Source: Cerasicoccus sp. TK19100
Lineage (GTDB): Bacteria > Verrucomicrobiota > Verrucomicrobiia > Opitutales > Cerasicoccaceae
NCBI RefSeq assembly: GCF_027257155.1
Contig: NZ_JAPWDU010000006.1
Coordinates: forward strand, 1-64,000
Length of the DNA stretch: 64,000 nt
Reading direction: 5' to 3'
The notes beneath the pieces are model-generated. The model searched no databases. It worked only from the letters and a program-made list of their open reading frames with translations, and was not told the origin of the DNA. Positions 2,120-55,694 of this stretch are shown one piece after another. Made by a program: the position numbers and the translations under genes. How positions within the stretch are numbered: the first letter of the stretch is position 1; each line of letters starts with the position of its first letter.

Positions 2120-2209
2120 AGCGTCAGCGTCGGACTTAACACCATGACGCCCGATTCCTCAACTTCAAGCCAGCATCCTGCTGGACCGGAAGATTTGCGC
2201 ACTGCGAAA

Positions 2210-2408
2210 ATGGCGGATGATGGAATTGTGAATTGCGGATGCTTGGCGGATCGCGAACTTCCACGTTCGCTTACTATCTATGATTTAAAAATGATCCCGT
2301 GATTCGTGGGCCAATACTGCTGAAATTATTTTAGACAGATAGTAGGCGAACGTGGAAGTTCGCGATCCGCCATCTGCCATCCGCCATCTGTATCCGCCAT
2401 CCGCCAGA
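2210..2408. repeat. Composite intergenic inverted repeat: REPIN core inside heptad-repeat arms
   Basis: The 413-bp gap between mgtE and the TPR gene (2120-2532) holds no gene. It contains a 35-bp inverted repeat (2245-2279 and 2337-2371, 34 of 35 pairs). Each arm is itself a small hairpin, GCGAAC-TTCCAC-GTTCGC. The outer flanks carry runs of a 7-bp word: GGCGGAT/GGAATTG-like on the left (2210-2250) and GCCATCT/GCCATCC in the right arm (2368-2407). The two genes are divergent, so their promoters must lie here, but I could not assign them. Confidence 0.75.
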
Positions 2409-2532
2409 TATAAATTTGAATACTTTCGCGATTTTTGGCGTCTTAAATGGGGTAAATGAGGAACTTTGGGGGACGTCGGAATGCGTTTGCCTTATGGCGG
2501 GGTGTTCCTTCATTGTTTATGAGTATTATTGA

Positions 2533-9307: not shown

Positions 9308-9383
9308 AGGGCGATAGTTCAATTGGTAGAGCAGCGGTCTCCAAAACCGCAAGTTGGGGGTTCGACTCCCTCTCGCCCTGCCA
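9308..9383 (+). tRNA. tRNA-Trp (CCA anticodon)
   Basis: A 76-base cloverleaf. The acceptor AGGGCGA pairs with TCGCCCT, the D-arm is TAGTTCAATTGGTAGAGCA, the anticodon stem GCGGT/ACCGC has loop CTCCAAA with anticodon CCA, and the T-arm contains GGTTCGACTCC. The 3' CCA is encoded. It sits between tuf and secE, the usual place. Confidence 0.96.
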
Positions 9384-9392
9384 CTTTTCAAT

Positions 9393-9486
9393 AAGTTCGA
9401 AAGTTCGAATGTTGTTGGTTCGAAAGTCATAAATTCCTGACGATCGGACCAACTTTCGAACCTTCAAACCTCCATACCTTCGAACT
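9393..9486. repeat. Octad-word inverted arms between tRNA-Trp and secE
   Basis: The left arm (9393-9427) is built from GTTCGAAA/GTTCGAAT words. The right arm (9447-9486) is built from the complementary CTTTCGAA, CCTTCAAA, CCTCCATA, CCTTCGAA in exact 8-base steps. The arms pair imperfectly around a loop of about 19 bases. The right arm ends 13 bases before the secE ATG. Confidence 0.75.
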
Positions 9487-9499
9487 GCTAAATACCACC

Positions 9500-9703
9500 A
9501 TGGCTAACCCATTTGCCAAGATTCGTCTTTTCTACAGCGAAACGCTGGTCGAACTCAAGAAGTCCCAATGGCCTAACGGCAAGGAACTGCGTGAGTTGAC
9601 TGCGGTGGTGTGCGTAGGTATTGTTATCATTGGCGCATTCATCGCACTGGCGGACTTTGCGCTTTATAATTTTGTTGCGCTGTTCACCAAGCTGGCCGGC
9701 TAG
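9500..9703 (+). CDS. secE: Preprotein translocase subunit SecE
   Basis: A 67-residue single-helix SecE, the usual size for the short bacterial form. An amphipathic helix containing VELKKSQWPNGKELRELT precedes one transmembrane helix (about residues 35-58). The WPN segment is the conserved cytoplasmic motif that clamps SecY. It is followed by nusG after 44 bp, as in most bacteria. No Shine-Dalgarno is visible at the ATG. Confidence 0.95.
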   Translation: MANPFAKIRLFYSETLVELKKSQWPNGKELRELTAVVCVGIVIIGAFIALADFALYNFVALFTKLAG

Positions 9704-16605: not shown

Positions 16606-16608
16606 GGG

Positions 16609-16710
16609 AAATTCAAAATGATAAATGCAAAATGATAAAACCACCGAGACCTTGTCTGACGGTTTCATCAAAGTAGCTTTTTTTAATTTTTAATTTTGAA
16701 TTTATAATTC
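16609..16710. repeat. Heptad-word inverted arms between rpoB and rpoC
   Basis: The left arm (16609-16636) is four exact heptads: AAATTCA, AAATGAT, AAATGCA, AAATGAT. The right arm (16678-16710) has the complementary pattern in 7-base steps (TTTTTAA, TTTTTAA, TTTTGAA, TTTATAA). They flank a 41-base non-repeat loop. The right arm ends 15 bases before rpoC. Confidence 0.8.
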
Positions 16711-16725
16711 TTCCGAAGGAAAACA

Positions 16726-20954: not shown

Positions 20955-20960
20955 GTGGTT

Positions 20961-21049
20961 TAGTTGGGAGTTGTGAGTTTCGAGTTCCCGCCGGTCTGAT
21001 TTCAGTTCTTTAAAAACTCCCAACTCGTAACTCGAGACTCCCAACTAAA
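20961..21049. repeat. Heptad-word inverted arms after rpoC
   Basis: The left arm is TAGTTGG, GAGTTGT, GAGTTTC, GAGTTCC in exact 7-base steps (20961-20988). The right arm (21013-21049), read on the reverse strand, is TAGTTGG, GAGTCTC, GAGTTAC, GAGTTGG, GAGTTTT. The loop is about 24 bases. It uses the same words as the site at 55583-55694. Confidence 0.8.
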
Positions 21050-21122: not shown

Positions 21123-21683
21123 GTGAGCGATTTACCCTTACCCAACTCGGACGCACAAGATGAACTGCAGGACTTCTTCTCTCAGGAAGAGTTTTTGGCT
21201 TTCTTTAATTTCTACCAGCCTGCGCCCGGAGGTAAACGGACCCTGGAGGGGCTTTGCAAGGTAGCTCGCCCGCAGGCCGGCTCCCAAAGCGCTCGGGTTA
21301 ACTACCTTTGCCTGACCTTCATCGTCGATACGCCGACCGAAGAGCTAGAGAAGCTCGCCGAGACAACCATCGACAAGCTCAAGGTCTCGTCGTTTAAGAT
21401 GCAGCTGCCCGCGTTGCAGTCCATCACTTCGGTGCCGGCCAGCATGCGCCACAGCGAGAACTACGTCCACCAAATGGACCTGATTTTCAGCAAGAGCTTT
21501 GCGATCGATCCGCGCGAAGTCGTGCCGGTGCTCCTCTTTACCTTCCGCAGTGTGACCGGCCTCAAGACCGAGGCACCTCAGTGGTGGGACGAGGCATCGC
21601 TCAAGGCACCGGCTCCCAGCGAAACGGAAAAAGCCAACTGGGGCAATCGCATCAAGGCCCTCTGGAAGGCTGTTGGCGGCTAG
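21123..21683 (+). CDS. Conserved-looking protein of unknown function
   Basis: A 186-residue soluble protein starting at GTG. It has no signal peptide, membrane helix or recognised motif. The acidic N-terminus DAQDELQDFFSQEEFLAFFNF is followed by a mixed alpha/beta stretch. Codon use fits the neighbouring housekeeping genes, and the reading frame is free of interruptions, so I take it as real. It lies between two heptad-repeat sites. Confidence 0.6.
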   Translation: MSDLPLPNSDAQDELQDFFSQEEFLAFFNFYQPAPGGKRTLEGLCKVARPQAGSQSARVNYLCLTFIVDTPTEELEKLAETTIDKLKVSSFKMQLPALQSITSVPASMRHSENYVHQMDLIFSKSFAIDPREVVPVLLFTFRSVTGLKTEAPQWWDEASLKAPAPSETEKANWGNRIKALWKAVGG

Positions 21684-21686
21684 GGG

Positions 21687-21799
21687 AATTCAAAATTCAA
21701 AATTTAAAATGCAAAATTCAAAAAAGTCATCTCGATTCCCTTCCGGTAAGTTCCAGTTGATTGGCTTTTTGCATTTTAAATTTATCATTTTGAATTTCC
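21687..21799. repeat. Heptad-word inverted arms before the HspQ-like gene
   Basis: The left arm is five heptads, AATTCAA, AATTCAA, AATTTAA, AATGCAA, AATTCAA (21687-21721). The right arm (21765-21799) is complementary, and its end touches the start codon of the HspQ-like gene at 21801. The words match those between rpoB and rpoC. Confidence 0.8.
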
Positions 21800-21800
21800 A

Positions 21801-22160
21801 ATGATTGCGCCGCGGGAGGCATTTGAGGAAGGCGGCGGGTCCGAGCCGTTATTTGAGGCGGGCGATTTGGTGAAACACCGTCGCTACGGCTATCGTGGTG
21901 TGGTCGTGCATCGCGACGACTCCTGCCAGGCCTCGGAGGTATGGTATCAAAAGAACCAGACTCAACCCGACCGCGAGCAGCCCTGGTATTACGTGTTGGT
22001 CGATGAATCCGACCAGACTACCTATGCCGCGCAAAGCAGCCTGGCACCCGATGATGACGACTCCTGCGTCATGCACCCGTGGGTGAACTTGTATTTCAAG
22101 GGCTTCGACGCTGGCAAGTATCAGCGCAACGACAAGCCTTGGAGCACAGAAGAGCAATAG
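21801..22160 (+). CDS. HspQ/YccV-like heat-shock (hemimethylated DNA-binding) protein
   Basis: A 119-residue protein. The core FEAGDLVKHRRYGYRGVVV (residues 15-33), QPWYYVLVDES (near 60) and HPWVNLYFKGFDAGKY (near 92) match the YccV/HspQ domain, originally described as binding hemimethylated DNA and later as a heat-shock protein that affects Lon substrate choice in enterobacteria. No Shine-Dalgarno is possible in its usual form because an AT-rich repeat arm abuts the ATG. Confidence 0.85.
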   Translation: MIAPREAFEEGGGSEPLFEAGDLVKHRRYGYRGVVVHRDDSCQASEVWYQKNQTQPDREQPWYYVLVDESDQTTYAAQSSLAPDDDDSCVMHPWVNLYFKGFDAGKYQRNDKPWSTEEQ

Positions 22161-40969: not shown

Positions 40970-41527
40970 TCATCTTGTTACTTCGAAGTTATCATCGACA
41001 GTTACTTGGTCGGTCGCGATTTCGTAAATCGTGCGTATCATCTCCTTGTCGGCTGTTGATTCAAACCAGGGGGCTGAGCACCAGGCATACTGGTTGGCGA
41101 CACGGACAAGCCCATGTTTTACCGCATTCTGATGAACGTAGTTTAATCGCGCCAAATATGATTTCTGATAAGTCAGGCGGGTTTCGCGAAAATTGTGCCA
41201 GACTTTGCGACCGCTTTCTCTATCAAGCTGGTTCACCCATGATGCTGTCTTTGCATGCAGCGTTCTCAACATGGCTGAAAGGGTGGCTGGATCCAACGGT
41301 GACTGAGCGACGAAATGATAATGATTCGAAAATACCGCCCATGCTTCAAGGTGCCAACCGTAATCATGTGTCAGTTTTAACAAGCCTCGCTGAAGCACAT
41401 CAAGTCTCTTTGAGTCTGCGAAAAAGTGCTGCTTGCGATAAGTTGCCGCTGTTACGAAATACGCACCTCGTTCTGTTAGCCTATGAACGGGAGCGTGGGG
41501 CCAGTTTATCTCCGGTTTGGAGGGCAT
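40970..41527 (-). mobile_element. RAYT (REP-associated tyrosine transposase) gene
   Basis: A 185-residue Y1-type transposase of the TnpA-REP family. The metal-binding motif is NHYHFV (H69, H71) and the catalytic tyrosine is in LNYVHQNAVKHGL (Y130). The N-terminal YFVTAATYRKQHFF is typical of the family. RAYTs handle single-stranded REP hairpins and are domesticated rather than freely transposing. It is flanked by a perfect 32-bp inverted pair of REP sequences (40908-40939 and 41547-41578), with another REP doublet at 36.4 kb. It sits inside the ATP-grasp/transglutaminase cluster, between the second transglutaminase and DUF2126, in the same orientation. Confidence 0.88.
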
Positions 41528-43421: not shown

Positions 43422-43428
43422 GGTGGAG

Positions 43429-43542
43429 AAAGTTCGAAAGGTTTGTAAGGTTCGTAGGTTCGTGAGGTTTGTAAAGAGGTGGTGATCGATCTATTTAGCC
43501 TTTCGAACCTACTAACTTTATGAATCTTCCGAACCTTTTTGA
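43429..43542. repeat. 8-9-base-word inverted arms between ATP-grasp and transglutaminase genes
   Basis: The left arm (43429-43477) contains AGTTCGAAAG, GTTTGTAAG, GTTCGTAG, GTTCGTGAG, GTTTGTAAAG in 8-9-base steps. The right arm (43498-43542) has the complementary CTTTCGAA, CCTACTAA, CTTTATGAA, TCTTCCGAA. The loop is about 20 bases. The words resemble those before secE. Confidence 0.75.
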
Positions 43543-43544
43543 AT

Positions 43545-51334: not shown

Positions 51335-51339
51335 GTTGG

Positions 51340-51478
51340 GAGATTAAAGTGGGCAAATTAAAAATTAAAGAACAGAGCGTCTGGCAAGTGGAGTAAAGCT
51401 GGCTTCACCACTTTTGCTCCGGTCATACAGATGCGTTCCGCAAATCTTTAATCTTTAATTTGCTCACTTTAATCTTCG
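51340..51478. repeat. Heptad-word inverted arms between ABM gene and lysC
   Basis: The left arm (51340-51372) reads AGATTAA, AGTGGGC, AAATTAA, AAATTAA in 7-base steps. The right arm (51441-51478) is its complement with CTTTAAT, CTTTAAT, TTGCTCA, CTTTAAT. The two agree at about 29 of 33 positions. The loop of about 68 bases is unrelated. This is the best-paired member of the family. Confidence 0.82.
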
Positions 51479-51485
51479 GCGCGTT

Positions 51486-55582: not shown

Positions 55583-55694
55583 TAGTTACGACTTCTCAGT
55601 TACGCGTGCTGAGTTTCGAGTTGCGCGTTGGAAAGCGAGAGCAGAGCTACCTCTTCAATGCGCAACTCGTAACTCGAAACTCACCAACTGATAC
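55583..55694. repeat. Heptad-word inverted arms before the GPP34 gene
   Basis: The left arm is seven heptads in a row from 55583: TAGTTAC, GACTTCT, CAGTTAC, GCGTGCT, GAGTTTC, GAGTTGC, GCGTTGG. The right arm (55660-55694), read in reverse, has CAGTTGG, TGAGTTTC, GAGTTAC, GAGTTGC. The GAGTT words match those after rpoC. The loop is about 28 bases. Confidence 0.82.

Follow-up and report, generated by a model that had tools for sequence, protein, structure and literature searches.

PF05635 (annotated as 'four helix bundle protein' or S23p) is widespread in bacteria but, to our knowledge, has no assigned function; for heptanucleotide repeats, likewise a common class, no cause has been agreed upon. 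Solved structures of the family are 2gsc and 2rld. The closest described systems are the intervening sequences (IVSs) of 23S rRNA genes in Leptospira, Coxiella and others, which, like the heptad elements reported here, are hairpins with complementary ends that carry a PF05635 ORF in sense orientation in the loop. The Coxiella IVS is described as selfish; it ends in inverted repeats, carries an S23p ORF of the PF05635 family and is excised by RNase III (PMC4990558). Like the IVP-bearing elements described below, it has 5' heptameric repeats, with two to three tandem copies of GACAGAT (degenerate GACAGAA) located 5' of S23p and a copy number that varies among strains (PMC4990558). The encoded intervening-sequence protein, IVP or S23p, has been described mostly from 23S rRNA insertions. 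It is homologous to the DGR accessory protein Avd (PMC10053308). Unlike the 23S IVSs, the heptad elements are located in spacers between protein genes, occur many times per genome, mostly lack an ORF and have arms composed wholly of degenerate heptads, whose words vary by locus and species.

Several other repeats share part of this anatomy. The short tandemly repeated repetitive (STRR) heptamers of cyanobacteria likewise lie in spacers, and GGGAACA, a word flanking IVP genes there, is dispersed hundreds of times; however, STRRs are reported to repeat an almost unchanged word in direct orientation, whereas the arms analysed here are inverted pairs of degenerate words. The TAACTGA repeats of Beggiatoaceae (PMC4679880) are also spacer heptamers, often located beside start codons, but they represent a single fixed word in direct orientation, with no inverted arms or link to IVP reported. 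Hairpins maintained by template switching (PMC8794818) similarly show concerted change in both stem arms, but are ordinary RNA genes rather than tandem heptad arms.

Heptad-arm sites in the window and in spacers genome-wide

The window comprises 64,000 nucleotides of contig NZ_JAPWDU010000006.1 from Cerasicoccus sp. TK19100 (genome G000; G001, G002 and G003 denote sister species and L-numbers fetched loci). The initial annotation had proposed eight inverted heptad-arm sites, and all eight were confirmed on reading the sequence (Table 1). At each of them, a left run of 4–7 related words is matched by a right run consisting of the reverse complements of such words. The site placed at 2210-2408 does have heptad arms but is not a simple arm pair, being a composite with a second inverted repeat inside. 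The proposed step of 7 bases, sometimes 8–9, was found as a period of 7 accompanied by 8 and 9, although the GTTCGAA sites step mainly by 8. The suggested skeleton RRRTTNN fits many word families but not all of them, as GGCAGAA, GGTCGGA and GTGCTTGG were also found; the more general rule is that the 5' arm is G-rich and purine-rich.

Table 1. Inverted heptad-arm sites of the window, with their words, surroundings and RNA fold scores
Feature	Coordinates	Strand	Words or arms	Surroundings	Fold z
Composite site	2203..2410	.	outer heptad arms TGGCGGA/ATTGCGGA opposite TCCGCCA words; inside, another near-perfect long inverted repeat (GCGAACTTCCACGTTCGC)		
ORF-less element	9390..9488	.	GTTCGAA, period 8	tRNA-Trp (9308-9380) left, secE (9500-9703) right	-5.7
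ORF-less element	16609..16710	.	AAATTCA/AAATGAT	fills rpoB-rpoC spacer	
ORF-less element	20959..21049	.	GAGTTNN	3' of rpoC	-5.3
ORF-less element	21684..21800	.	AAATTCA/AAATGCA	from stop of ORF 21123-21683 to ATG of YccV-like gene at 21801	-6.2
ORF-less element	43428..43543	.	GTTCGTA	flanked by codirectional (-) genes, CP-ATPgrasp/Alpha-E and transglutaminase	-7.3
ORF-less element	51338..51480	.	arms AGATTAAAGTGGGCAAATTAAAAATTAAAG		-10.9
Flagship ORF-less element	55583..55694	.	GAGTTNN		

RNA folding of the seven simple sites yielded z values from -1.6 to -10.9 and was unremarkable only at 16606-16712. Thus, as judged from the folds and the excess of inverted words, the window sites have complementary ends that form a long stem, as in 23S rRNA IVSs. 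They adjoin protein or tRNA genes and do not lie inside 23S rRNA. None of the eight contains an IVP ORF in the loop; IVP-bearing elements elsewhere in the genome share their arm words. No Rfam family matched at any of the sites, the only Rfam hits being two tRNAs.

A scan of 864 kb of G000 gave 73 scanning windows with kd of at least 15 and ki of at least 60, compared with 1 in a Markov shuffle. For the gap test, spacers of 40–600 bp between genes predicted by our own simple gene caller were each compared with 200 dinucleotide shuffles. Direct- and inverted-word counts were both significant (p ≤ 0.01) in 25 of 354 gaps in G000 (~7%), 25/320 in G001, 16/251 in G003 and 1/93 in G002, whereas no shuffled gap passed both counts at this threshold in any of the four genomes. 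The lack of an excess over shuffled sequence, named in the initial annotation as a refutation, is therefore not what emerged (25/354 real gaps vs 0 shuffled). Given the shuffle-tested excess in three of the four species and the single gap in G002, the pattern is real, genome-wide and shared within the genus, but uneven among species. The lag spectrum had its maxima at 7, 8 and 9, with multiples at 14, 16 and 21. Sites fill their spacers, the first paired word starting a median of 10 nt past the end of the left gene and the last ending 11 nt before the right gene. They are rare between divergent genes (4 of 76 called sites vs 199 of 942 other gaps; Fisher p 0.0003), the flagship site at 55583 being one of the few exceptions.

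IVP/S23p genes between heptad arms

In a long gap of G003, an ORF located between heptad arms was assigned by Pfam to 23S_rRNA_IVP (PF05635, E 8e-19). PF05635 members numbered 6 in G000, 9 in G001, 8 in G003 and 2 in G002. Several word families of G000 were each seen both with and without an IVP gene, namely GTTCGAA (L186, with GTTCGTA/GTTCGAA words in the IVP flanks), AAATTCA (L304, with AAATTCA words in the flanks and a downstream gene that reads like atpG), AGATTAAAGTGAGC (L173) and GTGCTTAGTGCTTGG (L301, with flanks GTGCTTAGTGCTTG matching the ORF-less L052 6516). The arm of the IVP-bearing element at L173 (G000:C7:34651), AGATTAAAGTGAGCAAATTAAAAATTAAAG, is identical in 31 of 32 bases to an arm of the window site 51340-51478. 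For the GAGTTNN words, no IVP-bearing partner was found. In G001, the ORF-less GGCAGAA elements L094, L148 and L165 and the IVP-bearing L169 have their word order in common, with E values of 1e-18 to 1e-21 for pairs of the ORF-less elements and down to 4e-14 against L169; most simply, these are copies of one element. The initial annotation missed that the arms are probably the ends of an element that has a protein-coding IVP/S23p form, present in G000 itself. At L093 4421-4820 (G001), several copies of one AGATTAAAGTGAGC arm set adjoin each other, apparently by tandem duplication of the element.

A heptad arm (the left arm at L173) is translated as the N-terminus of IVP (MKIKVSKLKIKV...) at L173, L195, L185 and L172, so that word changes alter the protein too. 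For the 6 IVP loci present in at least two sister species, each best match was the positional ortholog, as would be expected of stable, old locus lineages; recent movement of the IVP gene was not seen. At L173/L195, the IVPs of G000 and G001 are 95.7% identical and have the same words, while those of G000 and G003 are 79.8% identical and have other words. IVP divergence and word change thus tend to run together, a possible sign that the protein and the arms coevolve. A comparison in trans was mixed: for AAATTCA/GAATTAT, G000 vs G001, the ORF-less words equalled the IVP arms of their own species in 8/8 cases, but they did not match them for GTTCGAA in G001 or AAATTCA in G003. A species-wide match of ORF-less words to the species' own IVP arms, holding in some families and failing in others, is therefore not claimed. 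A simple dependence of arm density on IVP dose was likewise weak: the gap counts were 0/62 and 0/54 in two genomes without IVP, and 0/51 (G006) and 5/36 in two genomes with 8 IVP copies each, some of the latter 5 gaps being attributable to GC-rich chance.

Among relatives within the order, after correction of strands, the flank test gave p ≤ 0.05 in 18 of 25 loci of the genus and in 11 of 20 others. Weak PF05635 relatives beginning with MSNFFPHE, which were used as a negative control, had no arms. This relative is conserved at L194, L310, L314, L193 and L315 and is probably a housekeeping paralog.

For a broader survey, 84,980 species genomes were scanned with a typed generic IVP consensus sequence, yielding 80 loci from Cyanobacteria, Bacteroidota, Patescibacteria, Nitrospirota, Planctomycetota, Alphaproteobacteria and others. 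In 49 of the 80 loci, the 120 bp flanks before and after the IVP gene qualified as inverted-word partners at p ≤ 0.01 (58 at p ≤ 0.05), compared with 2/65 for neighbouring genes in the same loci. Permuted flanks reached p ≤ 0.01 in 9 of 108 cases, so that the nominal p values are somewhat too small (liberal). Across phyla, the IVP arms were dominated by a lag of 7, which ranked best in 78 of the 109 arms that were scored; heptameric repeats beside the S23p ORF, the IVS trait reported for Coxiella, were thus found here as well. The 5' arm was G-rich in 57 of 58 IVP arm pairs. Reversed polarity, with the pyrimidine-rich arm first, was observed at L308, L309 and L192, where the IVP genes lie beside an SDR-like gene. 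The gene upstream of IVP was on the IVP strand in all 64 loci with arms, compared with a split of 30 vs 10 in loci without arms. No 23S motif was detected in the fetched IVP loci. In three cyanobacterial genomes, the word GGGAACA, which flanks IVP genes in cyanobacteria, produced 242, 440 and 315 pattern matches, while its reversed control produced 3, 0 and 0.

Word change at fixed positions

Filled and empty sites were found at orthologous loci of the sister species. The spacer orthologous to 55583 contains GGCAGAA words in G001 and GGTCGGA words in G003 and is empty in G002. Between rpoB and rpoC, G001 has GAATTAT words, and the element is missing in G002 and G003 (short empty spacers). At two neighbouring loci, orthologous spacers carry GTTCGAA words or GTGTGTA words among the sisters. 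Comparison of filled with empty sites by eye revealed no clear target-site duplication; the ends vary in sequence, and no transposase lies between the arms. Poly-G tracts of 8–12 bases were noted in several spacers of G002 (L123, L125, L121), at positions where the sisters have heptad elements or nothing.

Arms of the same species formed 43.9 word pairs, vs 24.0 after swapping of arms between species, and own arms exceeded swapped ones in 31 of 37 comparisons, which share loci and are not independent events. The conclusion of the initial annotation that architecture is conserved while words drift is borne out: orthologous spacers retain the element, and both arms switch words together. Since they do so, local copying and inverting of words is a fair reading of the data; as probable members of an element family, however, the sites would not be free-standing products of a mutational process. 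Loci within a species resemble one another beyond expectation (permutation p 0.008 overall and 0.0016 for AAATTCA-type loci). At the GTTCGAA loci, inspection by eye showed no clear pairing between the variable positions of one arm and those of the other, so that complementarity concerns words more than single positions.

Proposed element family and rival explanations

The window hairpins probably belong, as intergenic members without an ORF, to a family of elements that in their complete form contain an IVP/S23p gene (PF05635). A complete element would consist of a G-rich degenerate heptad arm, a four-helix-bundle IVP/S23p gene and a complementary C-rich heptad arm, and the 23S rRNA IVSs would be the known members of the family. 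The anatomy of the Coxiella IVS is the same as that of the IVP-bearing heptad elements. The element would be promoterless and transcribed by read-through from the upstream gene. Its RNA is predicted to fold into a 20–27 bp stem that could be cut by RNase III, as in 23S rRNA, and such cutting would leave an element between genes with little harm. The heptad arms would lengthen and shorten by slippage at 7 nt, and template switching between them would carry changes across, so that words drift while complementarity is kept. The simplest guess is that IVP binds its own hairpin RNA.

The same mutational steps might suffice by themselves. In this case, there would be no element, and arms would form and persist locally by 7-nt polymerase slippage and template switching in spacers free of coding constraint. 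Concerted word change within a locus is consistent with such a process, template switching is able to make and mend hairpins (PMC8794818), and PMC4679880, citing Mrazek 2007, states that heptanucleotide repeats are more frequent than any other class in many genomes and names polymerase slippage as their proposed source. We regard this explanation as unlikely, because it leaves unexplained the IVP gene between arms across phyla, the sense orientation in 64/64 loci, the words and word order common to unlinked loci, and the near absence from the sister G002. Selection by the host for RNA hairpins that act as terminators or as processing or stability elements, with periodic words pairing in many registers, appears distinctly unlikely. 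It would account for the strong folds, the scarcity of sites between divergent genes (Fisher p 0.0003) and the lasting complementarity of the arms; yet sisters that lack the sites at rpoB-rpoC, at 55583 and elsewhere show no replacement hairpin, no T-tract rule was apparent, and hairpins that enclose a protein gene are widely spread.

Spread in the manner of a retroelement, with a reverse transcriptase acting together with IVP as it does with Avd in DGRs, is suggested by the homologous folds of IVP and Avd (PMC10053308) and by the presence of a reverse transcriptase in G000, G001 and G003, but is highly unlikely: the G003 enzyme that was read belongs to a type XIII retron with a SWIM partner, and G016 and G012, with 10 and 2 IVP genes, have no RVT_1 match. 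On these grounds, a reverse transcriptase is not supported as a required partner. The type XIII retron (reverse transcriptase and SWIM protein) is located at L142 1633-5118 (G003); the RVT_1 matches G000:C3:788022 and G001:C31:1554 are reverse transcriptases of similar size, and none was found in G002. REP/REPIN elements moved by RAYT (Y1 transposase) resemble the heptad elements in combining small hairpins with a larger coding form, and PF01797 genes are present in 8 copies in G000 (one of them in the window at 40970-41527, - strand), 3 in G001, 2 (partial) in G003 and none in G002. However, REPINs are fixed palindromes associated with a Y1 transposase, and the RAYT genes read carry single non-tandem palindromes (GACGGGGGTTTCAACCCCCG, GCGCCAGAGGGCTGGCGC) in their flanks and no heptad arms. 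A REPIN/RAYT identity is thus largely refuted and, as an origin of the arms, extremely improbable. The Y1/RAYT gene of the window has one REP-like sequence inverted on either side (TATGGAGTGCGCCAGCCCTCTGGCGCTTTAGCAT). Decayed copies of one ordinary transposon, the other refutation offered in the initial annotation, were not found either: a transposase is lacking, the words vary, and the REP/RAYT sequences of the same genomes are unlike the heptad arms.

The sites are thus better explained as relatives of the known 23S IVS/S23p elements, the new feature being an intergenic, mostly ORF-less variant whose arms are rewritten in place. A search restricted to open-licence papers returned no report linking dispersed heptad arms with PF05635 genes. 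We would give even odds to a wider generalization, in which a single, very widespread class of selfish RNA hairpins built on IVP/S23p left behind, as products or as relics, the majority of the heptad repeats scattered through bacterial spacers, cyanobacterial STRRs among them. Its arms would be continually rewritten, species would possess drifting word 'dictionaries', and the 23S IVS would be a particular case in which the element settled in rRNA. With IVP genes sitting between heptad arms in near-fixed polarity and orientation, the protein family and the repeat class would share one testable explanation, this link would provide a reason for the existence of 23S rRNA IVSs, and the elements would constitute a natural system in which to watch the concerted evolution of hairpin arms.

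These genomes also contain other repeats. Chains of small palindromes spaced ~22 bp apart (AACAACAGTAGTGTTGTTGCC, AAAAGCCTAGTGCTTTTT) represent a different dispersed repeat, pieces of which are 78–93% identical elsewhere in the genome; they were seen at L028 11681, L032 10441, L039 13501, L041 11401, L046 17621 and L052 4361, as well as at L097 17181 in G003 and L153 4541 in G001. Spacers also contain long, near-perfect inverted repeats that lack tandem words (such as GGAGGGCGGTGCTTCGTCACCGCC), at L023 17985, L025 16411, L046 17435 and, in G003, L139 3270.
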